The notes beneath the pieces were generated by a model that was not told where the DNA came from, ran no database searches, and worked only from the letters and a program-made list of their open reading frames with translations. A program made the translations under genes and the position numbers. Shown here piece by piece: positions 30,496 through 45,166 of a DNA stretch of 46,062 bases; position 1 is the stretch's first letter, and every line of letters begins with the position of its first letter. The stretch is from Nitrospirota bacterium (GTDB lineage: Bacteria; Nitrospirota; Nitrospiria; Nitrospirales; Nitrospiraceae): contig JAUXQT010000071.1 of assembly GCA_030682135.1 (NCBI GenBank), forward strand, positions 1 to 46,062, written 5' to 3'.

Positions 30496-30511
30496 TGTAA
30501 GCCAGCTCACA
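30496..30511. promoter_or_regulatory. CRP-like palindrome upstream of the thioredoxin/AhpD/DUF3179 operon
   Basis: TGTAAGCCAGCTCACA fits TGTrA-N6-TCACA. It lies 33 bases before the first start codon of the operon. Related sites precede other operons in the window; see 35248-35263, 36992-37007 and 44988-45003. Candidate binding site for the Crp-family protein at 34442-35143. Confidence 0.55.
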
Positions 30512-30544
30512 GATCATCCCCGCGCAATCGGCTACTGTGCTGTC

Positions 30545-30802
30545 ATGAGGCGGATGGATTTCTACTTTCACGATAGCTGCTTGTCGCGGCAGTCCGTCCT
30601 CTTGCTCGCGAGGGATATTCAACAAGACTGTCCTGCCTGGCATATCGGAATCCATCCCTTGCGGGAGTACGAGGCCACGGCTCTGGGCTTCCACGTCCTT
30701 CCGACCATAGTGATGAATGGCAGCACGGTGGCCGCCGGGATACCGAGGAAAGACTGGCTCCTGAGGAAAATGAAAGAATGCGAAGAGGTTGATCGGCGAT
30801 GA
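30545..30802 (+). CDS. Small thioredoxin-fold protein with one active-site cysteine
   Basis: 85 residues. DFYFHDSCLSRQSVLLLARD and GFHVLPTIVMNGSTV match a minimal thioredoxin/glutaredoxin-like fold with the cis-proline (LPT). Where CxxC is expected it has C12-L-S-R, so only the first cysteine is kept; monothiol chemistry or a binding role is more likely than dithiol exchange. An alternative ATG at 30554 would remove three residues. Cytoplasmic. The stop overlaps the start of the AhpD-like gene (ATGA), and a CRP-like palindrome lies just upstream. Confidence 0.65.
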   Translation: MRRMDFYFHDSCLSRQSVLLLARDIQQDCPAWHIGIHPLREYEATALGFHVLPTIVMNGSTVAAGIPRKDWLLRKMKECEEVDRR

Positions 30803-31422
30803 GGACCGTCACGTATCCGCTTCGAGCTTCGGTCCTGCCACCGCCGATAGAACACTCGGCCGCAGCACGAAACCATGCCGAACTCTTACGCCATGCCGCA
30901 ACTCAAGCCCTCTTCGCCGATATCACCCGGACGTTCGGCGTCTCGTTCGTGCCAGACCTGTTTGTGGGAATGCGCGATCGACCGGCGTATCTTGAAGCGG
31001 CCTGGGAGCTCTTCAAGGAAGACTTTAGACTCGACAGTCTGGATTTCAGAACAAAACGAATCATGGCCTTGGCCATCACGACCAACGAAGACGAAACGTA
31101 TTACATCGCCTCGTACCCCCATGCGTTCCGGCTAAATGCGCTTGACCATGCCATCTGCGACAAGCTCCTCTGTACGATTCGGTTCGTCAACGCCTTCGAC
31201 CCGCATCTATCCGGGGTGAACCCGGAACACCTGCCGAAGGCCACCAGAGTGGTGTGCGATTGTTTGCGGGAGGAATATCTGAACTCCGGGGCGACGAGCC
31301 CGAGTCTGGGCTCGTCGTGCCGGGCAGACACTGTACCCGTTGCGTCTTGGATCGGCGGCATAGTTACGATCAGTTTCCTGCTATTACTGATCGCGGCAGG
31401 AGCATATCTCGTTTCCCCATGA
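30799..31422 (+). CDS. AhpD-like (carboxymuconolactone decarboxylase fold) protein with C-terminal membrane anchor
   Basis: 207 residues. LDFRTKRIMALAITTNEDET and the following helices match the AhpD/CMD fold. In AhpD proteins the active site reads E-x3-C-x2-C-x3-H; here E97 and H108 are present at the exact spacing but both cysteines are replaced, by Y101 and A104. Peroxidase or disulfide activity by the usual route is thus unlikely. After the domain come a linker, encoded partly by a perfect hairpin, and a membrane helix (IGGIVTISFLLLLIAAGAYL) that ties it to the inner membrane. It overlaps both neighbours by four bases (ATGA), indicating translational coupling in a three-gene operon. Confidence 0.7.
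   Translation: MRTVTYPLRASVLPPPIEHSAAARNHAELLRHAATQALFADITRTFGVSFVPDLFVGMRDRPAYLEAAWELFKEDFRLDSLDFRTKRIMALAITTNEDETYYIASYPHAFRLNALDHAICDKLLCTIRFVNAFDPHLSGVNPEHLPKATRVVCDCLREEYLNSGATSPSLGSSCRADTVPVASWIGGIVTISFLLLLIAAGAYLVSP
31292..31317. repeat. Perfect hairpin inside the AhpD-like gene
   Basis: CGACGAGCCC (31292-31301) and GGGCTCGTCG (31308-31317) form a 10-bp perfect stem with a six-base loop, at the junction between the AhpD-like domain and its membrane tail. It may be a small inserted palindrome or act on the mRNA. Confidence 0.5.
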
Positions 31423-32432
31423 ATGAGACCCAGCCATCGCTGTTTCCCGCGGCACCCTCCAGAAACACACTCTGGATCCATATCACGTCGCCCAGATGGC
31501 GTTGGATTCTCTTCGTCGGCGTCGGCGCCGTCCTCATTCTCGCAGTCTGGCTCGGATTCGGGAGAAGTGCGAAAACACAGTTCGATCTCACGCGTTACAA
31601 TATCCCTCTCGACCAGATCGTCGAGGGAGGGCCAGCTAAAGATGGGATTCCGGCCATTCTCGCGCCTCGCTTCGTGACGGCGAATGACGCAACCTATCTC
31701 GCAAACAAAGATCGGGTGTTGGGCCTGAGTCTGGGAACCGAGGCGAAGGCTTACCCCATCAAGATTCTTAACTGGCATGAAGTGGTCAACGACAGGGTCG
31801 GAGGGAAAGACGTATTCATAAGCTATTGCCCGCTGTGCGGGACCGGAATGGCATTTGATTCCACGATTAATGGGCGCCCGCATACTTTCGGCGTATCCGG
31901 ACTTGTCTATCAAAGCAACGTGCTCATCTACGACCACCAGACGGAAAGCCTGTGGTCGCAGATCGGCATGCAGGCGGTGACCGGTCCGTTGACCGGGGAA
32001 AAGCTCACGCCGATCTTCCTCGAACATACGACTTGGTCGGAATGGCACACGGCCCATCCTACAACGCTCGTCCTCTCTACGAAGACCGGATCGTTTCGAA
32101 ACTACGATCGAGACCCCTACATAGGGTACGCTGAGAACAGAGAACTATTTTTCGACACCGCCCATTTCGATCCCCGCTATCATCCCAAAGAATGGGTGGT
32201 AGGAATTGAGCTCAACGGCGTCACGAAAGCCTATGCCTTCTCGGAGATCAAGAAGGTCCGTTCCCCCATTCACGATCAGCTTGGAGGGCAAGCCATCACG
32301 ATACACGCCGACCTGCAAGCCCGCAGTGTCTCTGTCACCGATGCTACGGGGAGGCCACTGCCCTCTGTGATGGCCTATTGGTTCGCCTGGTATACCTTCC
32401 ACCCAAAGACGGAGATCTTCACCGCGCACTGA
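31419..32432 (+). CDS. DUF3179 protein with N-terminal membrane anchor
   Basis: 337 residues. One membrane helix (about 29-46, ILFVGVGAVLILAVWLGFG) then a periplasmic DUF3179 domain: IPAILAPRFVTANDATYL, AYPIKILNWHEVVNDRVGG, and SYCPLCGTGMAFD with the family's CxxC (C137, C140). Later conserved parts are SGLVYQSNVLIYDHQTESLW and GPLTGEKL. Known only as a domain of unknown function; the CxxC could bind metal or act in redox chemistry. ATG 31419 overlaps the AhpD-like stop codon. It ends the three-gene operon. Placement in the periplasm follows from the single N-terminal helix. Confidence 0.9.
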   Translation: MNETQPSLFPAAPSRNTLWIHITSPRWRWILFVGVGAVLILAVWLGFGRSAKTQFDLTRYNIPLDQIVEGGPAKDGIPAILAPRFVTANDATYLANKDRVLGLSLGTEAKAYPIKILNWHEVVNDRVGGKDVFISYCPLCGTGMAFDSTINGRPHTFGVSGLVYQSNVLIYDHQTESLWSQIGMQAVTGPLTGEKLTPIFLEHTTWSEWHTAHPTTLVLSTKTGSFRNYDRDPYIGYAENRELFFDTAHFDPRYHPKEWVVGIELNGVTKAYAFSEIKKVRSPIHDQLGGQAITIHADLQARSVSVTDATGRPLPSVMAYWFAWYTFHPKTEIFTAH

Positions 32433-32496: not shown

Positions 32497-32512
32497 TGTA
32501 AGATACGCCACA
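32497..32512. promoter_or_regulatory. Weak CRP-like palindrome upstream of the PagL-like gene
   Basis: TGTAAGATACGCCACA has a good left half (TGTAAG) but two mismatches in the right half (GCCACA against CTCACA). It lies 70 bases before the PagL-like gene. Listed because of the stronger sites nearby. Confidence 0.3.
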
Positions 32513-32582
32513 GACCCGCGGCATGAACGTGCCGTAGCATGGCATCATCCAATGATGGAGAGAAAGGTGGGGCTGCAAGGCC

Positions 32583-33299
32583 ATGCGAACTATGGAAGAG
32601 CGAGACGGTCGACGTGACGGACTAGCCGCACAGGAAAATCCAAAACGAGTGGCCGACGGGCGGCCACATCGAAGTCGTGCCTTTCTATTCGCATCAATGG
32701 TCATAGGTGCGATGATCTGGATCAATGGCAGTGCGGCGGTGGCGGAATCGTCCTTTGCGGCGCGCGACGTCGTGACGCGGGGCGCCATCGAACTCGGAGG
32801 GGCCGTGGGATACGCCCAGGCCACAACGGCAGTCGGCGCTGGTACATCGGCCAACCGGGCTGCGGTCTTTGTGCTGCCGCGCATCGGAATAATACTGACC
32901 GACCCCCTGGGATCCGGGTGGTACCAGGGCAATGTCGAGCTGTTGGTGGAACCGGTGTATGCCCGATTTATCAAACCGTTTGCGGCCGATGCAGCGGGAG
33001 GTTCGTTCGTGGTGAAATATAACTTCCTCTCGTTCGGTCGATGGATGCCCTTCTGGGATGCCGGCGCCGGCATCTTCTGGACCAACTTGGCGCCACGGAT
33101 CTCAGAACAGAGCACCCAGTTCGAATTTGGCCTGCAAACAGGTCCTGGAGTGCAGTATTTTGTGACGGACCGGATCTCCTGGACCATGGGCGTGCGGCTC
33201 CACCATATCTCCAATGCCAACCTCGGCGAACGGAATACCGGAATCAATGGGGTGTTGCCCTATGTCGGCGTTTCATTCTTCACGCCTCGCTTATTTTGA
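32583..33299 (+). CDS. pagL: PagL-like acyloxyacyl hydrolase (lipid A 3-O-deacylase)
   Basis: 238 residues. After a hydrophobic signal segment (AFLFASMVIGAMIWINGSAAVA), preceded by a rather long basic leader, comes an eight-stranded barrel. The C-terminal signature GVRLHHISNANLGERNTGIN contains the catalytic histidine and serine of PagL, which removes the 3-O acyl chain from lipid A in the outer membrane. A later ATG at 32697 would give a shorter leader. The gene follows the DUF3179 operon by 150 bases and precedes a TVP38 gene by 19 bases. Family call is firm; the substrate in this organism is inferred. Confidence 0.82.
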   Translation: MRTMEERDGRRDGLAAQENPKRVADGRPHRSRAFLFASMVIGAMIWINGSAAVAESSFAARDVVTRGAIELGGAVGYAQATTAVGAGTSANRAAVFVLPRIGIILTDPLGSGWYQGNVELLVEPVYARFIKPFAADAAGGSFVVKYNFLSFGRWMPFWDAGAGIFWTNLAPRISEQSTQFEFGLQTGPGVQYFVTDRISWTMGVRLHHISNANLGERNTGINGVLPYVGVSFFTPRLF

Positions 33300-33318
33300 C
33301 ACAGCGGGAGACGAGACC

Positions 33319-34071
33319 GTGACGTTCAGAACTCATTGGCTCAAGCTCGGAGGTCTTCTGGTCTTGGTTGCGGGCGCATTCGCTGTAGTATCCTGGCTAG
33401 ATATAGGGGAACTGCTGAAGCCTGATCGAGTAGCCGATCAGCTGCGCGCAGCCGGCCCCTTCGGGCCGATCCTGTTTATGGTGCTCATGGCCACCGCCGT
33501 CGTCATCAGTCCCATTCCAAGCCTGCCTCTGGATTTGGCGGCAGGAGCGACATTCGGCGTGACGTTGGGAACCACCTATGCCGTCATCGGCGCGGAAATC
33601 GGAGCCGTCCTCAGCTTTCTGATAGGCCGGTCTCTGGGGCGAGCCGCTCTGACCCGAATTCTCCGGACAGACATCTCTTTTTGCGAACGTTGCTCAGACC
33701 GGCACTTGGCTATCTTTGTCTTCGTGTCTCGCCTGCTCCCTATCTTTTCCTTCGACCTCGTTAGTTATGGAGCAGGACTGACCAACATGTCCCTTCGAGC
33801 GTTCGCTGGGGCGACATTGCTGGGGATGATCGGCCCCACCTTTCTGCTCACCTACGCTGGGAGCCAAGTGGTATCAGGAGAATGGGTGTTGATCGTCCTT
33901 GGCTTCGCCATGGTGGCCTTGTTACTTCTCCTTCCGAAATTGGTGGTCCGATATCCGACAGCACGTTGGGTCCAGCTCATTCGAGGAGGAACTCCGGTCG
34001 CCCTTCCACCGAGAGCCATGGGGACAACGTCCGCCGTCCCTTGTTCCTCCTGTGGAGGACCGTTGCCATGA
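33319..34071 (+). CDS. TVP38/TMEM64 (DedA-like, VTT domain) membrane protein
   Basis: 250 residues, about six membrane segments. SPIPSLPLDLAAGATFG, GAEIGAVLSFLIGRSLGR and FVSRLLPIFSFDLVSYGAGL are the VTT-domain landmarks. Related proteins move or flip phospholipids or support membrane homeostasis. It starts with GTG at 33319 after GGGAG. The extra C-terminus ends PCSSCGGPLP, a CxxC-containing tail not typical of the family that might bind metal. Likely in one operon with the PagL-like gene. A second TVP38 gene occurs at 37125. Confidence 0.85.
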   Translation: MTFRTHWLKLGGLLVLVAGAFAVVSWLDIGELLKPDRVADQLRAAGPFGPILFMVLMATAVVISPIPSLPLDLAAGATFGVTLGTTYAVIGAEIGAVLSFLIGRSLGRAALTRILRTDISFCERCSDRHLAIFVFVSRLLPIFSFDLVSYGAGLTNMSLRAFAGATLLGMIGPTFLLTYAGSQVVSGEWVLIVLGFAMVALLLLLPKLVVRYPTARWVQLIRGGTPVALPPRAMGTTSAVPCSSCGGPLP

Positions 34072-34116: not shown

Positions 34117-34326
34117 ATGACGCAGAAACATCACAACAAACGCGGGGCCCAACCAGCCGAGCCGGAGCAGTCGCCCCCGGAACAGTTGCGAGCGGAAATC
34201 CAGCAGCTGGCCTATCAGCTCTATTGCGAGTGTGGCTATGAACATGGCCACGACCTCAAGCACTGGGCCGAGGCAGAACGGTTGGTGCTCGAACGGCATC
34301 AAGGAAGGCGCTCGACAGCCGGATAG
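34117..34326 (+). CDS. DUF2934 protein
   Basis: 69 residues. LRAEIQQLAYQLYCECGYEH and GHDLKHWAEAERLVLE match DUF2934, a short cytoplasmic domain of unknown function common in many environmental bacteria. CAAAGGAGGGTGCC precedes the ATG, an excellent ribosome site. It lies 45 bases after the TVP38 gene. Confidence 0.85.
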   Translation: MTQKHHNKRGAQPAEPEQSPPEQLRAEIQQLAYQLYCECGYEHGHDLKHWAEAERLVLERHQGRRSTAG

Positions 34327-34441: not shown

Positions 34442-35143
34442 TCAACCGAGCAGCTTGGATAACCCCTTCTCGTTCACGATGGTGATCGTCCTGCCATCCA
34501 TCTGAATGAGGCCGTCGTCCCGGAATTGCCCCATGGTGGTGCTCACGGTTTCACGGCTGCAGCCGATCAGGTTAGCCATTTCCTGGTGGGTCAATTTCAC
34601 TTTAAGTCGAATCCCCTGTTTCTCTGTGACCCCCTCGGTCTTGCTCAACTCTGAGAGCAAGTGAGCCAGGCGGGCCGGCACCTCGCGAAAAACGAGATCT
34701 TCGACACGGCTCTGGATTTTCTTGAGCCGCAGGCCGATCAACTTGGTCAGTTTGAACATCACGCTGGGATGCATGGCCAAATACTGATCGAAATCCTTCC
34801 GTGGAATCACGCAAATGAGCGCGTCATCAAGGGTCTCGGCCGAGGTTGATCGAGGGGCATCTTCCAGCACGTCGAGTTCTCCGAAGACGTCTCCCGCCTC
34901 TAAGATATCGAAGGTGACTTCCTTCCCGCTCGCCGCCGTGTTGGCGATCTTCACGCGCCCTCGTTTGAGGAGGTACACACTGCTGCTCGGGTCTCCAGGC
35001 AGATATAAGGGCTGACGCTTCTTGACCTCCTCCATGCGAGTGATCTTCTCCATCTCCTGCATTTCAGAAGGAGAAATTCCGTCAAACAAGCGAATGTGCT
35101 TGAGGAACCAAAGTTTGTTGGGAGCGGTTTGTGGTTGGTTCAT
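34442..35143 (-). CDS. Crp/Fnr-family transcriptional regulator
   Basis: 233 residues. N-terminal cyclic-nucleotide-binding-type barrel with GELDVLEDAPRSTSAET; the glutamate, arginine and serine that bind cAMP in CRP appear kept (E89, R98, S99), but cAMP binding is not proven. There is no N-terminal cysteine cluster, so it is not an oxygen-sensing FNR; C111 and C195 are the only cysteines. The C-terminal winged helix has LTHQEMANLIGCSRETVSTTMGQF; R197 and E198 match CRP R180/E181, while CRP R185 is replaced by threonine. CRP-like palindromes of TGTGA-N6-TCACA type surround the gene and a partial one touches its start codon, suggesting autoregulation. Confidence 0.9.
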   Translation of the reverse strand: MNQPQTAPNKLWFLKHIRLFDGISPSEMQEMEKITRMEEVKKRQPLYLPGDPSSSVYLLKRGRVKIANTAASGKEVTFDILEAGDVFGELDVLEDAPRSTSAETLDDALICVIPRKDFDQYLAMHPSVMFKLTKLIGLRLKKIQSRVEDLVFREVPARLAHLLSELSKTEGVTEKQGIRLKVKLTHQEMANLIGCSRETVSTTMGQFRDDGLIQMDGRTITIVNEKGLSKLLG

Positions 35144-35157: not shown

Positions 35158-35247
35158 TGAGATGGTATCAACCTACTCGGTTGCCTGCATGAAGGCAACC
35201 GCAGCATCTTTCACCCCGGATTGTCTTCGCTCTGGCCTAGAACAAAC

Positions 35248-35263
35248 TGTGAGGTAGCTTACA
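35248..35263. promoter_or_regulatory. CRP-like palindrome between the divergent crp-like and unknown periplasmic genes
   Basis: TGTGAGGTAGCTTACA fits TGTGA-N6-TyACA and is identical, base for base, to 44988-45003 before the bufferin operon. It lies 105 bases from the regulator start and 160 from the start of the other gene, so it could serve either. Confidence 0.6.
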
Positions 35264-35422
35264 GTTCCAGCCGACCGGCAACGTTAGGGCTCCAGGCCAT
35301 CTGTTACTCTGAACGGCCCGTTGCCTCCACGGTCACAACTCGCAACCGAGGCTTCAATCCCGCTATAGTCAGCCACTCCGTCCGTAGGTGCTCTATTCGA
35401 CCTCAACTTGGAGTATAAGGCC

Positions 35423-36784
35423 ATGGCCTCACCAGCCTCTCGCGGCAAGAGACGAGCGACGGTTGCGTCGCTGGCCTGCCTCACGATCCTCGCAATTGCG
35501 GGCTCTGCCTGGTTCGCCCATCGCTATGACGACCGGCCTCAGCAAACTGTCGCCCTTACGGCATTCTCGAAAGACGCCTATCCCGACAATCCGGAAAAGA
35601 CGAGCCAGGTCTTCGGCACGTATTCTCACCGGCAATTGATTGTCGAACAACTCGACGGCACCCGTTTCCGCTTCCTCCTCGAACCCGCTTCGCCGAAATC
35701 CGCAGCCATCGAACTGACCGATGTCGATCTCACGCATGTCGTTGCAGCAGTTCCCCCTTGGGCCAAAAGCGACCGGGATTTGACGAAAATCGGGTTGATC
35801 GACCGGGAATGGAACCGTCAGCAGGTCCGATTCACTCGACCCTCAACCCATCTTGACGTACGCGACGGCGGAGACGGGTTCGAGCAACGAGCTCTGACCC
35901 GTGTGGATCTCGCGCGTAACTGTCTGAACGCGGGATTGTGGGAACTTTTGCTGTTCACTACGGAAAATGGCGAAGAGCGCGTGTACGAACACCTCTGGTT
36001 CACGTTTCCGCTCGGACTCTACAAGCAGGTGTTCGAACGGGTGAACGACCTGTCCTATTGGTCCTACTGGTGGTCGCTGGAACATTGGATCGATCCGTCA
36101 GGCACGCCAATTCGACTGGATCAGCTCAGGACGGTTGAGCGGGAGTGGCCGGTCCAGGCCACGGCACGGTGGGATGAACCAGTGGCTACGAATGGCGAAC
36201 AACGTCGGAAGCGAACAAACATTCTCACGCCAGTCGCCGCCACCTATCGTGATTGGTACAGCGGACCGGTGCGGTTCGCGAGTTTTATTCCGCCTGGGCG
36301 CTACTCCCGCGCCCATCCACGAGAGACCCAATTGCATTATCTTGTCGAGTTGACTGGGACCCTGATGCGGCAGGTGAAACTATCTGGAGGAATTAAGTCG
36401 CTCTTCGAGATTGAACTCGCCTTTCGCAACTCACAGACCGGCGAACCGACGCGCCTGATTCTCGGCGGGCTCGATTGGGCCGCGATTCCGGTCGCGTCTC
36501 CGGAACAGTACGACCGCGGCTGGCAGGTTCCTCTTGGCATCGGCAACCCCAGCTTCTTTGAGTCGTATGAGCAGGTCGTGGCAAGTCCTCCGATCCAACG
36601 CACGTTCTATGGATTCCATCTCGACGCACAAAACCGCTGGCTCGACCATCACGCCATCGGTGTGGATGGCCCTCTCTTGCACTGGGATCATGACGATCCA
36701 TCCCTCCTTCACCTCTATCTCTTAAGCTACGAACGCCACGCGCTTCTGAACCATATCATCCTCACGATTCCCCCGCGATCATGA
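35423..36784 (+). CDS. Membrane-anchored periplasmic protein of unknown family
   Basis: 453 residues; family not recognised. One N-terminal helix (VASLACLTILAIAGSAWFA) leaves almost the whole protein in the periplasm. The body is rich in tryptophan and tyrosine (DLSYWSYWWSLEHWIDPSG, YRDWYSGPVRFASFIPPGRY) and mostly beta, with a C-terminal segment rich in histidine (WLDHHAIGVDGPLLHWDHDD) that could bind metal. No cysteine-based motif. ATG 35423 was chosen with GGAG nine bases upstream; a TTG at 35408 would add five residues. It is divergent from the Crp-family gene with a CRP-like palindrome between, so it is a probable target. Confidence 0.6.
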   Translation: MASPASRGKRRATVASLACLTILAIAGSAWFAHRYDDRPQQTVALTAFSKDAYPDNPEKTSQVFGTYSHRQLIVEQLDGTRFRFLLEPASPKSAAIELTDVDLTHVVAAVPPWAKSDRDLTKIGLIDREWNRQQVRFTRPSTHLDVRDGGDGFEQRALTRVDLARNCLNAGLWELLLFTTENGEERVYEHLWFTFPLGLYKQVFERVNDLSYWSYWWSLEHWIDPSGTPIRLDQLRTVEREWPVQATARWDEPVATNGEQRRKRTNILTPVAATYRDWYSGPVRFASFIPPGRYSRAHPRETQLHYLVELTGTLMRQVKLSGGIKSLFEIELAFRNSQTGEPTRLILGGLDWAAIPVASPEQYDRGWQVPLGIGNPSFFESYEQVVASPPIQRTFYGFHLDAQNRWLDHHAIGVDGPLLHWDHDDPSLLHLYLLSYERHALLNHIILTIPPRS

Positions 36785-37124
36785 GGCCCATCGATGCTCT
36801 TCTAACTCAAACGGATTGCGTTGAACTCAGTCTCACCCCCTTCTGCAGGCTCCTTACTGCATCATGAGTCAAGACAAGTGTGCCCCAGTAAATGCTCAGT
36901 TTGTACGACAACTTAGGAGACTCTGGTTGAGTAGTGGGAATCCTGCTCCATAAAAAACGCCGCCCTTCCCGGTCTTCCTCCCGTTGTGCTTTGTGAATTG
37001 GCTCACAGATTCAAATTGGGAATTGAGTTACCGTGAAGCCACGACGAGAGAACATTCCCCACTCACAGACCGAGCGAAGACGGACCAGGTGCCTGGCCTC
37101 AATCTGCCGATCGAAGGGAGCCTC
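36785..37124. other. Intergenic region with regulatory palindrome, no gene seen
   Basis: 340 bases between the large unknown periplasmic protein and the second TVP38 gene. Apart from the CRP-like site at 36992-37007 I see no hairpin, repeat or small gene. Confidence 0.4.
36992..37007. promoter_or_regulatory. CRP-like palindrome upstream of the TVP38/reductase pair
   Basis: TGTGAATTGGCTCACA is a full TGTGA-N6-TCACA match, the best in the window. It lies 117 bases before the TVP38 start codon. Confidence 0.6.
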
Positions 37125-37943
37125 ATGAAGGAAATACCTTGTGCCGTAGAACACCCGTGCACGTGCGAGACGGCACATCCGACACAACCGTCTCATCAAG
37201 GCTCTTTGCCCTCCGAATCGGCGAACGGGCCGCGCTCCGGCAAATTCATCATCGCCGCAGTGATCGGACTCGGCATCGGCGCATTCTTCTGGTTTGACCT
37301 GGATGCGTATCTCACGCTGGAAACTGTAAAGGCGAACCGCGACCGGCTCCTGGCCTTCACTGACGAGCATCGCGCCGCTGCCGTGGTGAGCTTCATCGTG
37401 ACCTATAGTCTGGTGACCGGCTTGTCTCTTCCCGGTGCCACGATTCTGACTCTTGTTGGAGGCTTTCTGTTCGGGAGTGTCATGGGAACCGCCTTCGTCA
37501 ATCTTGGGGCGACCAGCGGAGCCACACTGGCGTTCCTGACGGCACGCTATCTCTTACGCGAGTGGGTCGAGCAGAAGTTCGGCCCGAAACTGGGTCCGAT
37601 TCAAGACGGGTTTGCGAAGAACGCGTTCAGCTACCTCGTGACGCTCCGGCTTGTTCCGTTGTTTCCCTTCTTCCTAGTCAATCTGGTGTCGGGCTTGACC
37701 CGAGTCCGCCTCGGCACCTATGTGCTCGCGACGGCTCTGGGCATTGTGCCCGGCAGCTTTGTCTATGCCTACGCTGGGCGTCAGTTGGGCACGATCAATT
37801 CACTCAAGGAAATTGCCTCGCCCAACGTAATCCTGGCGTTCACCTTGCTGGGACTGCTCGCCCTGGTGCCGATGCTGTATCGGCGATTCGCCGGCAAACC
37901 GGCAGAACCGGTGACTCACACAGAGGCTCCCTCTCACTCGTGA
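37125..37943 (+). CDS. TVP38/TMEM64 (VTT domain) membrane protein
   Basis: 272 residues. A soluble N-terminus with CAVEHPCTCE (three cysteines in nine residues, possibly metal binding) is followed by about six helices. SLPGATILTLVGGFLFGSVM, ATSGATLAFLTARYLLREWV and LRLVPLFPFFLVNLVSGLT are diagnostic of the VTT domain. Start at ATG 37125 after GAAGGGAG; the frame to 36984 would cross the regulatory site. The flavin disulfide reductase gene starts 41 bases later. In other bacteria these two domains can occur as one fused protein, so a functional link is likely. Confidence 0.88.
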   Translation: MKEIPCAVEHPCTCETAHPTQPSHQGSLPSESANGPRSGKFIIAAVIGLGIGAFFWFDLDAYLTLETVKANRDRLLAFTDEHRAAAVVSFIVTYSLVTGLSLPGATILTLVGGFLFGSVMGTAFVNLGATSGATLAFLTARYLLREWVEQKFGPKLGPIQDGFAKNAFSYLVTLRLVPLFPFFLVNLVSGLTRVRLGTYVLATALGIVPGSFVYAYAGRQLGTINSLKEIASPNVILAFTLLGLLALVPMLYRRFAGKPAEPVTHTEAPSHS

Positions 37944-37984
37944 ACGAGACTCGATGCCCCTCATCAACCGAAAGGACCCCGCTC

Positions 37985-39538
37985 ATGAACGCGCCTGAAA
38001 AGCCTGGAGTCTCCCATGTGATGCTTCCCGATGACGAACACAATCAACGCTTGATCAACTATGTTCATCCACCGCATTGGGTGAACCCGACTCCGACCGG
38101 TCGATATAACCTGGTGGTCGTTGGTGGAGGAACGGCCGGGCTCGTGACTGCTGCCATCGCGGCCGGCCTAGGCGCAAAGGTCGCACTGATCGAACGGCAC
38201 CTCATGGGCGGCGATTGCTTGAACGTCGGCTGTGTGCCCTCCAAAGCCTTGATCCGGGCCTCGCGTGCCTGGGCGGACATGTGGCGAGGTGAAGAGTTCG
38301 GCATCCACTTCTCCGGCGGGCCGAAGGAGGATTTCCCCGCCGTCATGACGCGCATGCGGACATTGCGCGCCCAACTCAGCCGGACGGATTCGGCCCAGCG
38401 GTTTACCGGCATGGGTGTCGATGTGTATTTGGGCCAGGCGCAATTCACCAGCGCGCAGACGGTTCAGGTGGACGACGTCACGTTAGACTTTGCCAAGGCC
38501 GCCATCTGCACCGGCGCACGCGCCTCTGCGCCCCCCATCCCAGGATTGCAGGAAGCAGGCTATCTAACTAATGAGACCATCTTCTCGCTGATCGAATTGC
38601 CGCGGCACCTGGCGATCATCGGAGCAGGCCCCATAGGCTGTGAACTGGCGCAGGCTTTTGCCCGGTTTGGCAGCCAGGTGTATCTCATTGAGGCGATGCA
38701 CGGGATCATGCCGAACGAAGACCGCGATGCGGCAGAAATTGTCGAGCAGGCCATGATTCGCGAGGGCGTGACTTTGTTCTGTTGCGGCAAGGAGTTGACC
38801 ATCCAAAAGACGGAGGCCGGCAAGCGGCTGACAGGTGGATCGCATGGACGGGCCTACGATATCACGGTCGATGCCATCTTGGTGGGCACTGGTCGTAAGC
38901 CGAATGTCGACGATCTTGGCTTAGAGGCTGCTGGGGTGGACTATGACAAGGCTGGCGTCACAGTCAACGACCAACTCCGCACAACCAATCCGAATATCTA
39001 TGCGGCCGGCGATATTTGTTCCCGCTACAAGTTTACGCATGCGGCCGACGCCATGGCCCAGATCGTGATTCAGAACGCCCTCTTTCCCCATCCCTTCGGA
39101 CTCGGGACCGCACAGGTCAGTTCGCTCGTCATCCCGTGGGCGACCTATACAGATCCGGAGATCGCCCATGTGGGCCTGTACGAAACCGAGGCGAAGGACA
39201 AGGGGTACAAGGTGGAGACCTTCACGCATCGCTTGGACGAGGTGGATCGGGCGGTGCTCGACGGTGAAGCAGAGGGCTTTGCGAAAGTCCATGTGGAGAC
39301 AGGGACGGATCGCATTTTGGGGGCCACGATTGTTGCGGCCCATGCCGGCGATTTGATCAATGAGTTCACGCTTGCCATGAAAGCCGGACTGGGCTTGAAG
39401 ACCCTGGCGTCGACGATTCATCCGTATCCCACGCAAGGCGAAGTCGTGAAGAAAGTCGCCAACGCCTGGCGGAAGACCACCTTCACCTCACGACAAAAAA
39501 ACATCCTCAGTAAGTGGTTTTCGTGGACGAGAAAATAG
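37985..39538 (+). CDS. FAD-dependent pyridine nucleotide-disulfide oxidoreductase (MerA-like)
   Basis: 517 residues. FAD site VVVGGGTAGLV (44-54), redox-active disulfide GGDCLNVGCVPSKAL (C78 and C83), NAD site AIIGAGPIGCELAQAF, second FAD motif NIYAAGDIC, and the interface HPYPTQGE with the catalytic histidine-glutamate pair. This is the class I family of mercuric, lipoamide and glutathione reductases. Paired mercury-binding cysteines at the C-terminus, needed for MerA activity, are absent, so mercury reduction is not supported. AAGGA precedes ATG 37985. Together with TVP38 it probably forms a membrane-linked redox pair. Confidence 0.9.
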   Translation: MNAPEKPGVSHVMLPDDEHNQRLINYVHPPHWVNPTPTGRYNLVVVGGGTAGLVTAAIAAGLGAKVALIERHLMGGDCLNVGCVPSKALIRASRAWADMWRGEEFGIHFSGGPKEDFPAVMTRMRTLRAQLSRTDSAQRFTGMGVDVYLGQAQFTSAQTVQVDDVTLDFAKAAICTGARASAPPIPGLQEAGYLTNETIFSLIELPRHLAIIGAGPIGCELAQAFARFGSQVYLIEAMHGIMPNEDRDAAEIVEQAMIREGVTLFCCGKELTIQKTEAGKRLTGGSHGRAYDITVDAILVGTGRKPNVDDLGLEAAGVDYDKAGVTVNDQLRTTNPNIYAAGDICSRYKFTHAADAMAQIVIQNALFPHPFGLGTAQVSSLVIPWATYTDPEIAHVGLYETEAKDKGYKVETFTHRLDEVDRAVLDGEAEGFAKVHVETGTDRILGATIVAAHAGDLINEFTLAMKAGLGLKTLASTIHPYPTQGEVVKKVANAWRKTTFTSRQKNILSKWFSWTRK

Positions 39539-39591: not shown

Positions 39592-40359
39592 ATGACACTC
39601 CGTATTTCGATCTTCATGATCAGCATCGTGTTTCTGGTTGTAGTGGTGATGACTCTCAGCGAGCCGAATTGGCTGCAAGCTGAATCTCCAGCGAGAATAG
39701 AGATCGGCACGTTTTCTGCGGCGGCTCCCGACGGCCCCTGGCCCGACGGCTGGAAGCCGCTTACCTTTCCGAAGATTCCCCAGCACACGACGTACCGCCT
39801 CGTGAAAGACGGCGACCGCGTCGCCGTCAAAGCAGCCAGTCAGGCGTCCTCATCCGGGCTGACGCGAGAAGTCTTGATCGATCCGAAGGAATATCCGATC
39901 ATTCGATGGCAATGGAAAGTCGCCAATGTGCTCAAGGCCGGCGACGTGGCCAAGAAAGAAGGGGATGATTATCCCGCCCGCATCTATGTCACCTTCCAAT
40001 ACGACAGCCAGAAAGTCGGCCTCTTCGGGAAGGCGAAGTACGAAGTGGCCAAACTGATCTATGGCCAATATCCGCCGCTGGGCGCCATCAACTATATCTG
40101 GGAGAGTCGGGCGCCGGTGGGGACTACCGTGCCGAATCCCTATACGGATCAGGTGCATATGATCGTGGTCAATAGTGGCTCGACCAAGCTCAATACCTGG
40201 ATCACCGAGGAGCGCAATGTCTACGAAGACTACAAGCGGGCCTTCGGCCAGGAGCCGCCCATGATTTCCGGCGTCGCCATCATGACGGATACGGACAATA
40301 CCGGTGAGTCCGCCGAGGCCTACTATGGGGATATTGTGTTCAAGAAGAGGTTGGAGTAG
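39592..40359 (+). CDS. DUF3047 secreted protein
   Basis: 255 residues. Signal or anchor segment (ISIFMISIVFLVVVVMTLS), then the DUF3047 pattern: IIRWQWKVANVLKAGDVAKK, DDYPARIYVTFQYD, LGAINYIWESRAPVGT, VVNSGSTKLNTWITEERNVY and SAEAYYGDIVFKK. The domain is predicted to be a beta-sandwich, perhaps sugar- or ligand-binding. Function unknown. 53 bases after the reductase gene and probably the last gene of that run. It converges on the cytochrome gene. Confidence 0.9.
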   Translation: MTLRISIFMISIVFLVVVVMTLSEPNWLQAESPARIEIGTFSAAAPDGPWPDGWKPLTFPKIPQHTTYRLVKDGDRVAVKAASQASSSGLTREVLIDPKEYPIIRWQWKVANVLKAGDVAKKEGDDYPARIYVTFQYDSQKVGLFGKAKYEVAKLIYGQYPPLGAINYIWESRAPVGTTVPNPYTDQVHMIVVNSGSTKLNTWITEERNVYEDYKRAFGQEPPMISGVAIMTDTDNTGESAEAYYGDIVFKKRLE

Positions 40360-40391: not shown

Positions 40392-40949
40392 TCAGCGAGA
40401 CAGCACATCCGGCCTCGGGTCCGAGACGAATCCCTCTCGATTGGGCATCTTCACAGCAGGAAGGGTCTGCGCATCGATCGCGGCGTCGGCGGGGATGATG
40501 CCGTTTTGGTGCAGGAGCCAGGCAACGACAGCATAGACCTCATCGGGCATCAGGGATTGCGGCGCGTTCAACGGCATGGCACGATGGACATAATCATACA
40601 ACGTCGTAGCATAGGGCCAGAAGCTGCCGATGGTTTTGATCGGTTTGTCAGTGGTCAGCGAGCCCTGGCCGCCGACCAGTTGACTCTGTGGCCCTTCGAC
40701 CCCGGTCGGCCCATGACAGGCGCTGCACTTATTCGAGTAGATGGCTGCCCCTTGCTGCACGGTCCCTCGACCAGGCGGCAGCCCAATGCCCGTCGGGCCG
40801 ATGTCGATGTTCCAAGCCGCAATCTCCGCGTCGGTAGCGGGATGACCGAAGCCGTAGGGCGACGTCTCTTCCGCGACAGCGACTCCACTGAGAAGCAAGG
40901 ACAATCCCATAGCTGGCAGCACGAAAGAGGCTGTCCTACACCTGGACAT
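40392..40949 (-). CDS. soxD: Mono-heme cytochrome c, SoxD-like
   Basis: 185 residues. Signal peptide (VLPAMGLSLLLSGVAVA), one heme c motif (CSACH), and the SoxD-type context: YGFGHPATDAEIAAWNIDI, GLPPGRGTVQQGAAIY, and AMPLNAPQSLMPDEVYAVVA with the likely methionine ligand. Classical SoxD is about twice as long with two hemes; this version lacks the second domain. It should take electrons from the molybdenum protein encoded upstream and pass them to the respiratory chain. The ATG at 40949 overlaps the end of that gene by 14 bases. Confidence 0.8.
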   Translation of the reverse strand: MSRCRTASFVLPAMGLSLLLSGVAVAEETSPYGFGHPATDAEIAAWNIDIGPTGIGLPPGRGTVQQGAAIYSNKCSACHGPTGVEGPQSQLVGGQGSLTTDKPIKTIGSFWPYATTLYDYVHRAMPLNAPQSLMPDEVYAVVAWLLHQNGIIPADAAIDAQTLPAVKMPNREGFVSDPRPDVLSR

Positions 40950-42198
40950 TCGCCACCCTCCCGTCTGAGGTCACTTTCCAACTCTGAATCGCATTGTAGT
41001 GGTATGAGGAATGAACCCCTCTGGCTGCCACGAGGGCGGCTCTGGCCGGCTGCACATAGCCGGTCTCATCGGTACAGCGGCTTTGCAGGATTGTTTCCTT
41101 CCCGTTCCAGCGCCAATCGAACCGGAAACGTGTGTGGCACTGCGGGAGCACCGGCTCCTGGAGGCGTGCTGGTTGCCACGTCCGCCCGTTGTCGATACTC
41201 ACCTCAACCGCTGTCACCACACCGCGTCCGCTCCAGGCGAGCCCGCGAATCTCAACGAAGCCTGGTTCGATCTGGTGGCCACCCGATGGACTTGTAATCA
41301 CTGATTTGGCCTCCATGGCAAAGCTAAATTGCCGGGCGGTGCCGTCCGGCATCAGATCGGTATAGCGCGATGTTTCCTCGCGGGTCATGAAGGGCGCCGT
41401 GCCGAGTTTGAGCCGCCTGAGCCACTTGATGCAGGTATTGCCTTCCCAGCCTGGAATCACCAGGCGCAGCGGGTAGCCTTGTTCCGGCCTGAGGGCCTCG
41501 CCATTTTGTCCATAGCAGAGGAGCGCATCCTTCAGCACCTCCGCCAGCGGCAGGCTGCGGGTCATGGCGGCGGCATCGCTGCCTTCGGCCAGGACCCAGG
41601 CCGCGTCCGGATTGACACCGGCCTCGGTCAACACCGTCGCCAGCGGCACGCCCGTCCACTCGCTGGTGCTCATGAGCCCATGCGTGTCTTGAACGGTCTT
41701 CCCATGGGGGCCTTCCCATTCCTTCCCGGAATTGCCGGAGCATTCGATGAACAGCATGCGTGTCACGGAGGGAAAGCGCGTGAGATCCGCCATCGAAAAG
41801 ACAAGCGGTCGTTCGACCAGTCCATGAATCAACAGCCGGTGGCGATCGGGATCGATGGCCGGCACGCCGTTGTGATGGCGCTCGAAGTGCAGCGCGGACG
41901 GGGTGATGATGCCATGCAAGGATTGGTGAGGCGTCAACGAATGGGTGGCCGTGGTCAGGCGTCGTGCGGTTTCTGTCGATGCGCGTGCGCCATAGGGACT
42001 GGGGCCGTGACCTGGCACGCGGGTGGGATCGGTGTCGTTCTGTTCTGCTGCCGGCAGCAGTGATGGGGCGATCAATCCGGAAGCGGTCGCCGCCACCGCC
42101 GAGACCGCGCTGACCAGCCATGCGCGGCGATCGACGCGTTCCTGCTCAGGAGCTTCCGCCTCCGGTGAAACAGGCTTCTCTTGATCCGGTGAGCGCAT
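40936..42198 (-). CDS. soxC: Sulfite/sulfur dehydrogenase molybdenum subunit, SoxC-like
   Basis: 420 residues. A twin-arginine-type signal (DRRAWLVSAVSAVAATASG) indicates export in folded form. The molybdopterin domain has the cysteine ligand in FIECSGNS (C153), followed by GYPLRLVIPGWEGNTCIKWL and the C-terminal dimerisation domain (VEIRGLAWSGRG, VEVSIDNGRTW). SoxC/SorA enzymes oxidise sulfite or protein-bound sulfane sulfur in the periplasm. Start at ATG 42198. It forms an operon with the cytochrome gene. The other sox genes are not in the window, so sulfite oxidation is more likely than complete Sox chemistry. Confidence 0.88.
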   Translation of the reverse strand: MRSPDQEKPVSPEAEAPEQERVDRRAWLVSAVSAVAATASGLIAPSLLPAAEQNDTDPTRVPGHGPSPYGARASTETARRLTTATHSLTPHQSLHGIITPSALHFERHHNGVPAIDPDRHRLLIHGLVERPLVFSMADLTRFPSVTRMLFIECSGNSGKEWEGPHGKTVQDTHGLMSTSEWTGVPLATVLTEAGVNPDAAWVLAEGSDAAAMTRSLPLAEVLKDALLCYGQNGEALRPEQGYPLRLVIPGWEGNTCIKWLRRLKLGTAPFMTREETSRYTDLMPDGTARQFSFAMEAKSVITSPSGGHQIEPGFVEIRGLAWSGRGVVTAVEVSIDNGRTWQPARLQEPVLPQCHTRFRFDWRWNGKETILQSRCTDETGYVQPARAALVAARGVHSSYHYNAIQSWKVTSDGRVANVQV

Positions 42199-42254
42199 AC
42201 ATCCTCTGTTTACGTCACGGTTGGCGTATCGATCAGTGTGCCCTCATTGGCTGT

Positions 42255-42291
42255 GCTGAGCAAGGGACTCGAAACCAATACCGTGCTCAGC
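42255..42291 (-). terminator. Weak hairpin after the bufferin operon
   Basis: GCTGAGCA (42255-42262) and TGCTCAGC (42284-42291) form an eight-bp stem with a 21-base loop, in the short gap after the DoxX gene. No T run. Confidence 0.3.
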
Positions 42292-42304
42292 CCTATGATT
42301 CATC

Positions 42305-42838
42305 TCATGCGTTGTGAAAAATAGGTTGTTTGGGTATAGCCGCATCGGTCGTGCTCATGGTGTGTCTTCGTCGATAGATGCGATCCAAAAGGGCGTCCAC
42401 TGAGATCAGCCCAGGTCCATGCAGGACGAAATACAGAAACAGCACTCCCCAATAGAACGCCTCTTGCAGCGCGGCTTCAGACAGCTGCCCATACGAGAGC
42501 GCGGCGACGATATTCAGTCCGAAGAGCGAGAGGGCCGCCCATCGTCCGGCCAGACCGATCACCAGCAGAAACGAGCCACCGAGTTCAACGGCCGTCGACA
42601 AATAGGCTGCCACCTCCGGCGGCAAAACCGGCACATCGTAGACCATGGTGAAGAGCATCACCGTGGACATCCAACTGGAGAGCTTGACCATTCCTCCTTT
42701 CCAGAAGATGTTCGCGAGGTACAGGCGCACAGAGAGGTCGAACAAGGGAGTCAGCGCTTCGATTCCACGGACTAGCCGCAGATAGGAGGAGGCTCCGTGA
42801 TCGATCACGCGATTCATGAGACTGTCGCGGTGTGCCAT
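42305..42838 (-). CDS. bufD: DoxX-family membrane protein, BufD-like
   Basis: 177 residues with four membrane helices. FDLSVRLYLANIFWKGGMVKLSSW and VAAYLSTAVELGGSFLLVIGLAGR match DoxX. In bufferin operons a DoxX protein is the fourth gene and is thought to help membrane electron flow or peptide maturation. GGAGGATCT precedes ATG 42838. The start lies 25 bases inside the preceding gene, typical of this operon. Assignment as BufD rests on context; DoxX proteins alone have other roles. Confidence 0.85.
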   Translation of the reverse strand: MAHRDSLMNRVIDHGASSYLRLVRGIEALTPLFDLSVRLYLANIFWKGGMVKLSSWMSTVMLFTMVYDVPVLPPEVAAYLSTAVELGGSFLLVIGLAGRWAALSLFGLNIVAALSYGQLSEAALQEAFYWGVLFLYFVLHGPGLISVDALLDRIYRRRHTMSTTDAAIPKQPIFHNA

Positions 42839-43611
42839 AGATCCTCCTTCACGGAAATTCCGGCTATGGCCTGCACGTTCAGCAGGGTGGTCATCAACCG
42901 GGTGAAATCGAAACCGGATTCAGCATCTCGTGCCAGTCGTTCGATCGATGCGACGGTCGCTCCCCGAGACAGGGCCTCCAGCAACCGGTAATCCAGCCAG
43001 GCCAGCGGTATGACCTGTACCGCTCCGCCGCTTCGCGCCACGATGAGGCCGGTCTGTTCCTCCGGAAGCGGCAAGTCGAGAGCCGCGTCCGGTGATACGT
43101 CCGCTTGGAGTGCCAGCCAGACGCGATGGACCGGAAAGGGAAAGGACAGGAACCGCGCGGTCTGATGGAATTGGAGGGTGATGCGCGAGGGATCTGCCGA
43201 GAGCATCGCGTGAAGCTGGTCAGGGGACAGCGGCGCCGAATCCGCCGCCTGATAGACCTCGTGACAGGCCCATTCGAGCCGTGCCAGCGCGACGAGGAGT
43301 GGCGGTGCATCGAGCCGTTGCAGCAAGGCCGGGAGGTGGCGGCCATACAGAAACAGATCGCCGCTGGTCGAGGGATGGTGCTTAAGGTACCCGCGCGCGA
43401 GCACGCCGAAATAGCCATCGCCGACCAGCCGATGCAACACGGGATAGGTGATCTTTAGCACCTGCACAAAGTTATTCCGAATCAATCGGCGGTAGAGTGC
43501 GATGCTGCGCAGCGCCGACCCATCCGCCGCCATCGCGGCTGTAACCGCAGCGTGATTCCCTTCAATAATGGATTTGGAGAAGGCCTGTTGCAGATCACAC
43601 AGCCTCGGCAT
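42814..43611 (-). CDS. bufC: DUF2063 protein, BufC-like
   Basis: 265 residues. LCDLQQAFSKSIIEGNH, YRRLIRNNFVQVLKITYPVLHRLVGD and ARGYLKHHPSTSGDLFLYGRHLPALL define the DUF2063 putative DNA-binding-like N-domain that in bufferin and methanobactin systems pairs with the DUF692 enzyme as recognition partner. ATG 43611 with GGAGGCTGCC; the frame to 43692 is spurious. The gene overlaps BufB by 17 bases and the DoxX gene by 25, so the products are made in step. It probably presents the precursor to BufB. Confidence 0.88.
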   Translation of the reverse strand: MPRLCDLQQAFSKSIIEGNHAAVTAAMAADGSALRSIALYRRLIRNNFVQVLKITYPVLHRLVGDGYFGVLARGYLKHHPSTSGDLFLYGRHLPALLQRLDAPPLLVALARLEWACHEVYQAADSAPLSPDQLHAMLSADPSRITLQFHQTARFLSFPFPVHRVWLALQADVSPDAALDLPLPEEQTGLIVARSGGAVQVIPLAWLDYRLLEALSRGATVASIERLARDAESGFDFTRLMTTLLNVQAIAGISVKEDLWHTATVS

Positions 43612-44440
43612 GGCAGCCTCCAAGAATGGCGTCAGCCTGTGCGGCTTGTTCGACCAGCACCGACAGCGGCGGGAGATTGGTATCCCATTCAATCAGCGTC
43701 GGGCGCGGGCCGAAGTGGTGGATCGCCCACTCATACAAGCTCCAGACTTCCGGGTACACAGGCTGGCCATGGGTATCGATCAGCATGCTCCCGAAGCGAT
43801 CGAAGCCTGCCAGGTGGATTTCCTGCACAGCCTCGACTGGAATCGCGCCCAGAAACTCAAGCGGATCCAGGCCGAAGTTGACGGCATTGACATAGACATT
43901 GTTCAGATCGAGCAGAATTCCGCAGCCGCTCCTCTTGACGGTCTCGGCCATGAAGGAGCTTTCTGGAATCGGAGAATCTTGCCAGGTCAGATATCGGGTA
44001 ATATTTTCGATGAGCATCGGACGCTTCAAGAATGTCTGGACTTCGTCGATTCTGGCGCAGACATGATCTAAACTCTCTTCGGTGTAGGGAAGGGGCAAGA
44101 GATCGTTGAAGAAGCGGCCGCTGACGGAGCACCAAGAAAGATGCTCGGACACGAAAGCCGGTTCAAATCGATCGAATAAGGCTTTCAGTTTGTGGAGATG
44201 AACCTGGTCGATCGGATCGGTAGAGCCTAACGATAGGCCGACGCCGTGAAAGCTCAGCGGGTAGCAAGCTCTGATGCGCTCAAGGATGCGCAACGGTGCG
44301 CCGCCCTCGCCGAAGTAATTCTCCGGATGGGTTTCCATCCAGGCCACCGGCGGTGGCGCGTCTAGGATCTCACGAAAATGATGTGCCCGCAGTCCGATCC
44401 CGGCCTGTGCCGGGATCGGGGCGGGATGTTGAACAGACAT
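43595..44440 (-). CDS. bufB: DUF692 multinuclear iron enzyme, BufB-like
   Basis: 281 residues. GIGLRAHHFREILDAPPPVAW, ETHPENYFGEGG, YPLSFHGVGLSLG, FVSEHLSW, IENITRY, LLDLNNVYVNAVNFGLDP, IHLAG and IDTHGQPV supply the histidines, glutamates and aspartates that bind iron ions in MbnB/BufB enzymes. These enzymes modify cysteines of a precursor peptide, forming oxazolone- or thiooxazole-type groups. Start at ATG 44440, 11 bases after the precursor gene. Member of a bufABCD operon; the modification in this species is inferred from family. Confidence 0.92.
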   Translation of the reverse strand: MSVQHPAPIPAQAGIGLRAHHFREILDAPPPVAWMETHPENYFGEGGAPLRILERIRACYPLSFHGVGLSLGSTDPIDQVHLHKLKALFDRFEPAFVSEHLSWCSVSGRFFNDLLPLPYTEESLDHVCARIDEVQTFLKRPMLIENITRYLTWQDSPIPESSFMAETVKRSGCGILLDLNNVYVNAVNFGLDPLEFLGAIPVEAVQEIHLAGFDRFGSMLIDTHGQPVYPEVWSLYEWAIHHFGPRPTLIEWDTNLPPLSVLVEQAAQADAILGGCHAEAV

Positions 44441-44451
44441 CGCTCGCCGTC

Positions 44452-44787
44452 CTACATCTTTTTCATCATCATCTCTTTCATCTTCGCCAGATCGTCTTTC
44501 GTAATGGGCAACACGGTGCCCTTGGCGATCTTGATGCACAAACCCTTCGGCAGGAACACATACGAATCGGCCTCATTGTCGGTCTTGGACTGGCCCACAC
44601 AGGAATGGAGACTGGTCTTGACCGCGCAGTCGTTCATGCCCGCCTTGGCGACGCCACCACAGGCCTCCCAGCCGGCAGGCATTTCAGCCATCTTCGGAGC
44701 CGCCGCCGCCGTCTGGGCACCAGCAAGACTGAGTGCAACCAACAATGCGGAATGGATCATGGCATGCTTCTTCGTCGTTGCGTTCAT
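44452..44787 (-). CDS. bufA: Bufferin precursor (DUF2282), BufA1-like
   Basis: 111 residues. Signal peptide of about 30 residues (IHSALLVALSLAGAQTAAAA), then the DUF2282 pattern with four cysteines, C43, C54, C63 and C84 (ACGGVAKAGMNDCA, SLHSCVGQSKTD, LPKGLCIKI). In bufferins two of the cysteines are converted to thiooxazoles and the product holds copper in the periplasm. The tail DDLAKMKEMMMKKM is rich in methionine and lysine and is longer than I expect for the family; methionines could add copper ligands. AAGGAGATTCAC precedes the ATG. First gene of the operon, with a CRP-like palindrome 200 bases upstream. Confidence 0.88.
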   Translation of the reverse strand: MNATTKKHAMIHSALLVALSLAGAQTAAAAPKMAEMPAGWEACGGVAKAGMNDCAVKTSLHSCVGQSKTDNEADSYVFLPKGLCIKIAKGTVLPITKDDLAKMKEMMMKKM

Positions 44788-45166
44788 GTGAATCTCCTTG
44801 AATAGGATGTGTGAGGTTGCGGAATCCGCTCATTGAGTCGCTGAACGTGCGTGTCCCCAATCGCTCGCCTCGATTCCCTCCTTGATGGACCTCCTTTCTC
44901 AACTGCAAGCGCTTCATGTTCCCGCTTGCATATGGATTGAGGGCGTAGCGGCATGGTCACATCCTATCGATTGTGCAGGAGACGCGCTGTGAGGTAGCTT
45001 ACAAAGGTATCCCGTTCGGGACGGCATACTCGCAGGTCCTTGTCCCCCGTCATCGCCTCGTTCCGTACCGAGCCATGTCGTGGAACATGTAGCATCCTGC
45101 TCCGCACAGCGATTCACTGTCGGGGCTGACTTCCGTTGGAGCATGCCTTAGGGACCCGGCATTTCT
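44788..45166. other. Leader region of the bufferin operon, no gene seen
   Basis: About 380 bases between the bufferin precursor and the DUF1348 remnant. It contains the CRP-like site at 44988-45003. No other gene, repeat or strong hairpin was found. Confidence 0.4.
44988..45003. promoter_or_regulatory. CRP-like palindrome upstream of the bufferin operon
   Basis: TGTGAGGTAGCTTACA, identical in all 16 bases to 35248-35263 beside the Crp-family gene nearly 10 kb away. The two sites have different flanks, so this is not part of a longer repeat. Confidence 0.6.

Follow-up and report, generated by a model that had tools for sequence, protein, structure and literature searches.

Several described systems lie close to the locus reported here. 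Small thioredoxins of the Thioredoxin_3 or MJ0307 type (PF13192; PDB 1fo5, 1nho) and proteins with the AhpD / carboxymuconolactone decarboxylase fold (PF02627; PDB 2ouw; TIGR04169 in arsenosugar loci) are the relatives of its first two products, and the third belongs to the DUF3179 family (PF11376), for which published lists give the motif UxxC/T (PMC9312934, PMC13188914). Two kinds of neighbouring operon also have described counterparts, namely the arsenosugar-type arsM-arsR-arsS loci and the bufferin operons, the latter with a role in copper stress (PMC12452194).

We analysed a window of 46,062 nucleotides, which lies on contig C71 of a 3.75-Mb draft genome whose relatives are Nitrospira and other Nitrospiraceae. 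It contains three adjacent genes, trx, ahpD-like and DUF3179, here together referred to as the trio. From sequence comparison we propose, with roughly an even chance of being right, that the trio is the lead operon of a CRP-linked Nitrospiraceae island which handles soft metals or metalloids and disturbed thiol chemistry. An earlier note, made from this DNA alone, knew of no described system with these parts. Our literature search likewise gave no description of the gene set, which is recurrent, and a soft-metal/thiol stress response that includes the trio is probably previously undescribed.

The three coupled genes and their products

The trio and its promoter elements comprise the following features.

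30496..30512, + strand: CRP-type palindrome TGTAAGCCAGCTCACAG, centred 41.5 nt upstream of the trx ATG
30533..30538, + strand: putative -10 box TACTGT, 6 nt upstream of the trx ATG, where the transcript is probably leaderless
30545..30802, + strand: trx, 85 aa, thioredoxin fold, Cys12 as sole active-site Cys (C-L-S-R in place of CxxC), cis-Pro53
30799..31422, + strand: ahpD-like, 207 aa, AhpD fold, CxxCxxxH lost, C-terminal hydrophobic helix at about 187-205
31419..32432, + strand: DUF3179 gene, 337 aa, N-terminal anchor at about 30-48, Cys137-Pro-Leu-Cys140, internally duplicated

All three genes lie on the same strand, and the ATGA overlaps described in the earlier note were confirmed at both junctions (4 nt each). 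That note had also described the first product as a small thioredoxin-like protein that keeps one of two cysteines, and here model, structure search and profile agree. The AF2 model has a mean pLDDT of 92 with the order beta-alpha-beta-alpha-beta-beta-alpha, its Foldseek matches are thioredoxins, and the profile matches 1fo5 (MJ0307 thioredoxin) in the PDB at E 4.7e-8. The Pfam family Thioredoxin_3, a thioredoxin fold with cis-Pro, was recognised in 19 of 24 family members. In the alignment of these 24 diverse members, H9, C12, S14, P53, G65, P67, W71 and L72 are invariant. The CxxC redox motif itself is absent: every member has C-[LIMP]-S-x with the first Cys only, and the position of the second is occupied by R, E, Q or another residue, never by Cys. 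The gene is under purifying selection (dN/dS 0.14-0.33). We also considered an ArsD-like metallochaperone and rejected it, as ArsD matched just 2 of the 24 members, at E 0.11 or worse, against 19 for Thioredoxin_3. The protein may be pictured as a cytosolic monothiol partner, for thiol or metal transfer or for control.

For the second gene the AhpD fold proposed earlier was borne out by profile-to-PDB comparison: a profile of AhpD-like proteins, built without any canonical member, matched the AhpD core 2ouw at E 6.3e-14. The window protein itself stays below the Pfam CMD gathering score and has no Pfam or NCBIfam match, and a search for a plasmid match found none. A reading as (R)-2-haloacid dehalogenase (DehI) was rejected, since this match is at E 1.7e-5 and is limited to DehI's C-terminal half. 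Of the catalytic CxxCxxxH motif, the His and the two Cys are all replaced in every copy. The earlier description of the protein as cysteine-less has to be corrected, because it has five Cys (120, 125, 153, 155, 174), none of them in the active site and none conserved. The described anchoring by a C-terminal helix holds for the window copy and for 6 of 11 aligned copies in all, but the helix is missing in the other 5. Values of dN/dS are mostly 0.34-0.56, apart from one very close pair that is uninformative, so selection is weaker than on DUF3179 and trx. We suppose that the protein is a non-catalytic AhpD-fold adaptor, which would be tethered to the membrane in some lineages only.

Since both folds are confirmed, trx and ahpD-like could be taken as a peroxide-detoxifying pair, in which Trx reduces an AhpD-like peroxidase; but Trx lacks the resolving Cys and the AhpD-like protein lacks all three catalytic residues of CxxCxxxH in every copy. 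We rejected the peroxidase reading on the loss of these residues, and regard the pair as very improbable.

The third protein matches PF11376 over its full length at E 4.1e-89 (299 bits against a cut-off of 27). It has a hydrophobic N-terminal anchor, looks exported and carries the loop C137-P-L-C140, as the earlier note had read it, and CPLC is indeed the only conserved dithiol among the three proteins. The two halves of the protein are homologous (residues 84-225 and 250-337; hhalign E 1.4e-11), with the loop in an insertion within the first half. The predicted model has a pLDDT of 79.6; searches of the PDB matched neither its sequence nor, with confidence, its fold, and Foldseek gave nothing below E 0.27. 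Residues 106-206 weakly resemble Rieske ferredoxins (top VIA-align rows, Z 4.5), but profile-profile comparison does not support this and the cluster ligands CxH...CxxH are absent, with CPLC and FGVSG instead; a cluster-bearing Rieske protein was therefore rejected, and a Rieske-like fold is at most tentative. Among the Nitrospiraceae, CPLC is intact in all aligned copies, and dN/dS of 0.13-0.20 indicates purifying selection.

Elsewhere in the phylum, an in-frame TGA falls exactly at the position of the first Cys in three DUF3179 genes, each probably encoding a selenoprotein whose fourth motif position is not Cys.

L063, 6482-6643: SW-U-PLA
L065, 6464-6640: GF-U-PLQ
L066, 2868-3044, - strand: GY-U-PLQ

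Since these relatives have no Cys at the fourth position, the reactivity probably resides in the first residue of the motif, and the family can do without a CxxC relay. DUF3179 is likely the active member of the trio. In our model it would be the working enzyme, held by its anchor at the outer side of the inner membrane, with Cys137 of the CPLC loop as the one reactive residue (Sec in relatives, where the second Cys of the motif is dispensable), and its substrate would be a thiol in oxidised or metallated form, to be reduced or to hand over a soft metal.

Some further copies are worth recording. A paralogue at L064 (444-1472) has no Cys at all and keeps the HE..ND and W-S-Q residues, which hints at a Cys-independent role of the fold. 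At L043 (7025-8053) the gene is split by a TGA at the conserved Trp of ESLWSQ; Sec was rejected there, since TGA replaces a Trp codon and points to a nonsense mutation or a sequencing error. In some copies DUF3179 is directly followed by a conserved gene with an EDCGT[CW] motif (L043, 8050-8601; L097, 4398-4937; L103, 9556-10128), which was rejected as AhpD-like because the CGTC/CGTW motif was seen by eye only and found no database support.

Outside the Nitrospiraceae, the neighbours of DUF3179 include redox and metal(loid) genes: TVP38 with a MerA-like gene (L060, L065), radical SAM with methyltransferase and dihydrolipoyl dehydrogenase (L150), LMW phosphatase with radical SAM (L146), and an azurin-type arsenate reductase subunit (L143). 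These neighbours in unrelated organisms, among which DsrE and TauE also occur, agree with a place in soft-metal/thiol chemistry. So does L061, a mer-like locus, where the genes that come after DUF3179 in the same orientation encode a MerR-like regulator, a Thioredoxin_3 protein of small size whose CAVC is intact, a MerT-like protein and a MerA that ends in a CC tail.

The promoter site and the wider island

Downstream of the trio, the window continues with the following genes.

32583..33299, + strand: PagL-like outer-membrane beta-barrel (PF09411, E 2.6e-16), a conserved downstream neighbour
33235..34071, + strand: VTT/TVP38-type inner-membrane protein 1 (TVP38-1)
34117..34326, + strand: DUF2934 small protein
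34442..35143, - strand: CRP-family regulator (crp), convergent to trx and its conserved partner
35420..36784, + strand: conserved protein of about 454 aa without a Pfam match, repeatedly adjoining crp in Nitrospiraceae and 66-87% identical in several relatives
37083..37943, + strand: TVP38-2
37982..39538, + strand: MerA-like FAD disulfide oxidoreductase without a terminal CC
39592..40359, + strand: DUF3047 protein (PF11249, E 4.2e-83)
40392..44787, - strand: bufA1-bufB-bufC-doxX-soxC-cytochrome c, consecutive genes, with BufB and SoxC above NCBIfam cut-offs

The crp product has both a cNMP-binding domain and a Crp HTH. In relatives the order after DUF3179 is conserved as an optional extra gene, the PagL-like porin, TVP38-1, DUF2934, convergent crp, the unknown gene, TVP38-2, MerA-like and DUF3047; on long contigs the strip goes on with cytochrome c, SoxC, DoxX, BufC, BufB, BufA, MerR, arsM, arsR, arsS and a phosphate-type transporter. 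The collinear island spans about 38 kb in relatives, with some gains and losses. In the genome studied here it is split between C71 and contig C92, which are joined only by synteny with these relatives.

The bufferin operon was identified by the BufB MNIO maturase, which is above its cut-off, together with a DUF2282 precursor and a DUF2063 partner, and its SoxC is above the cut-off of TIGR04555. On C92, ArsS (TIGR04167) is above its cut-off, and the ArsM-type gene falls below the arsenosugar-ArsM cut-off (NF038099), with 162 bits against 400. A second AhpD-fold protein of the island lies beside arsM on the same contig (L214, 508-1065, - strand), an AhpD-family protein with intact CEPC and a weak TIGR04169 match.

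The CRP-like site that the earlier note had placed before the operon is kept in all 41 trx loci examined as TGTAA-N6-T[CT]ACAG, far beyond chance. Its centre lies 41.5 nt upstream of the trx ATG in 27 loci, 42.5 in 13 and 43.5 in 1. Across 32 non-redundant upstream regions the site is near-invariant, the flanks have diverged and a TA-rich -10 box stands right before the ATG; relatives have a TAnnnT-like box (TAGAAT, TATGCT etc.) at the same distance. In E. coli, -41.5 is the class II activator position of CRP. A site at this position would imply that the mRNA has no leader and begins with the trx ATG itself. Further sites of this type occur in the window.

32497..32513, + strand: weaker CRP-type site with 1 mismatch, preceding the PagL-like gene; G250 and G123 have a perfect site at this place
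35247..35264, no strand assigned: CRP-type palindrome between crp and the divergent gene at 35420
36991..37008, + strand: CRP-type palindrome before the TVP38-2, MerA-like and DUF3047 genes
44987..45004, - strand: CRP-type palindrome in front of bufA1, with TAGGAT and ATG after it in the spacing of the trx promoter

In the whole window the site matched 9 times, counted by strand, at 5 places, where 1.2 matches were expected, and the islands of five relatives have 3 to 8 perfect sites each, against 0 to 0.1 in Markov shuffles; these are mostly intergenic and lie before the same operons. Our genome holds 11 palindromes, 5 of them in the island, including one before arsM on C92. Among the six outside it, three are in repeats of one multihaem cytochrome gene and two inside other genes (genes assigned by eye). 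The sixth stands 37 nt before a trigger-factor-like gene (contig C42; L205, 1501-1516) and is the sole intergenic site found outside the island.

These sequences show one promoter class, apparently with a leaderless start, at every trx gene examined, and its site also ahead of the crp region, the TVP38-2/MerA-like/DUF3047 genes, the bufferin operon and arsM-arsS. The island CRP itself would bind the sites and switch the island on. Co-location alone is not specific, because ArsS and DUF3047 are nearly universal in Nitrospiraceae; only the shared site is. Since the trio has this site in common with the copper-chelating bufferin operon and with arsM-arsS, we assign it to a programme of soft-metal/thiol stress.

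The island also has SoxC and DsrE-like genes (the latter partly assigned by eye), which makes sulfur stress a candidate for its actual role. According to this alternative, the island and the trio deal not with metals but with reactive sulfur (sulfite, sulfane, sulfide), through SoxC with cytochrome c, DoxX, the DsrE-like proteins and the disulfide reductase, and Trx and DUF3179 handle persulfides. The SoxC gene within the bufferin operon fits this, as do DsrE and TauE near DUF3179 in haloarchaea, and protection from oxidative or sulfur stress has been described for a DoxX homologue of a different context (PMC12452194). However, it is the bufferin and arsM/arsS operons that have the site in common most consistently, and SoxC could simply serve the bufferin operon, given that small numbers of bufferin-like clusters contain extra molybdopterin-oxidoreductase genes (PMC12452194). 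We consider the sulfur reading unlikely, though deserving of attention, and keep the soft-metal/thiol placement.

Distribution of the three genes

Among 175 Nitrospiraceae genomes, trx was found in 39, ahpD-like in 23 and DUF3179 in 21, with the last two together in 19. Four genomes have ahpD-like only: in G108, DUF3179 has truly been deleted down to a remnant of 37 codons, and in the other three the draft assembly does not allow a check of the adjacent gene. The closest relative (L041/L096, 'Nitrospira sp. CG24E') has kept trx and ahpD-like with DUF3179 cut to a 37-codon remnant, trx adjoins DUF3179 without ahpD-like at L194, and many genomes carry trx with neither. Some genomes have two or more copies of the trio, and N. 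moscoviensis has two.

The neighbourhood comparison proposed in the earlier note gave a divided answer. The three-gene order recurs in other genera, far beyond chance, and ahpD-like is spread over 6 of the 22 genera of Nitrospiraceae; the genes were found together only in this family, and adjacency in one lineage had been named there as evidence against a system. No AhpD-like copy was found outside the Nitrospiraceae, and of the pattern-based contig scans for the trio, which could miss distant relatives, one gave no hits and another only Nitrospira/Nitrospiraceae records. A few of these are labelled 'uncultured Nitrosospira' yet have the same island gene order.

These data bear on the inner-membrane complex on both faces that the earlier note had suggested, taken here to mean that Trx, the AhpD-like protein and DUF3179 would pass reducing equivalents across the membrane to the CxxC of DUF3179. 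Translational coupling by ATGA at both junctions, hydrophobic anchors at the AhpD-like C-terminus and the DUF3179 N-terminus, and a gene order conserved over several genera are all in keeping with it. On the other hand, the missing tail helix in 5 of 11 copies means that such a complex is not a conserved design, the remnant in L041/L096 and the arrangement at L194 show, together with the many solitary trx genes, that the three do not depend on one another's presence, electrons would have no obvious way through the membrane along a single TM anchor, and the Sec relatives do without the second Cys of a relay. We therefore regard the two-faced complex as possible, weakly supported and not favoured, with a low probability. 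Three genes also proved too small a unit, the trio being one operon of the CRP-linked island.

The neighbour of trx is usually a gene of the CRP family, convergent to it, and where ahpD-like and DUF3179 are absent trx as a rule stands beside or near crp, so that trx and crp form the core and the rest is cargo. As an alternative to the main reading, trx would work with CRP, and ahpD-like and DUF3179 would be lineage-specific accessories under weak selection between them. The gene counts, the higher dN/dS of ahpD-like, the deletion in L041, the nonsense codon in the L043 DUF3179 and a C-terminal frameshift in the ahpD-like gene of L048 speak for it, but DUF3179 is under clear purifying selection with its CPLC intact, and the same order has been retained repeatedly, in several copies in some genomes. 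We find passenger status improbable, and return to the trio as lead operon of the island.

Comparison with described systems

A bolder version of the soft-metal reading, which we offer tentatively and would not expect to hold in full, is that in nitrite-oxidising Nitrospiraceae a CRP-type regulator runs a soft-metal(loid) island joining bufferins, arsenic methylation and a new extracytoplasmic class of thiol/selenol enzymes (DUF3179), partnered by a Trx with one thiol and by an AhpD-fold adaptor that is catalytically dead; in that case thiols modified by metals or oxidants would be the substrates of DUF3179, and its fold would be new among enzymes. To our knowledge, few regulons are known in Nitrospira, and the island offers a testable one for these key nitrifiers. 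Through the promoter sites in common with copper and arsenic genes, the DUF3179 selenoproteins are also for the first time placed in a concrete context of regulation. Of interest as well are the link of a one-thiol thioredoxin with a CRP-family regulator, and an AhpD-fold protein that is tethered to the membrane and stripped of its catalytic residues.

The trx product resembles the Thioredoxin_3 / MJ0307-type proteins in size, fold, cis-Pro, first active-site Cys and a conserved G-x-P near the C-terminus; it differs in that the second active-site Cys is never there, in the C-x-S signature, in the invariant H9 and W71, and in the position of its gene beside a CRP gene. The AhpD-like protein shares with AhpD / carboxymuconolactone decarboxylase a profile match across the AhpD core, and a canonical relative with CEYC occupies the same gene order at L052; by contrast, its CxxCxxxH is wholly replaced and some copies have a C-terminal membrane helix. 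DUF3179 of the window is like the other (seleno)proteins of PF11376 in its match well above the cut-off, in CPLC and in the Sec variants, both known and seen here, but it has an N-terminal anchor in place of a short signal-like N-terminus. Within Nitrospiraceae it accompanies the monothiol Trx wherever the contig allowed a check, with the exception of the fragmentary G384, in which the two are on different contigs.

At the level of operons, the arsenic genes resemble arsenosugar-type arsM-arsR-arsS loci in ArsS, an ArsM-like protein, ArsR and a peroxidase-like AhpD with CEPC, with a CRP-type site before arsM; they differ in lying on the neighbouring contig and in an ArsM under the arsenosugar-specific cut-off. 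The neighbouring bufferin operon is a copper-storage operon of the bufA1-bufB-bufC-doxX kind, with BufB, DUF2282, DUF2063 and DoxX. The published survey lists sigma factors around bufferin clusters and does not mention Crp (PMC12452194), whereas the island copy has soxC-cytochrome c in addition and a CRP-type site in common with the trio.
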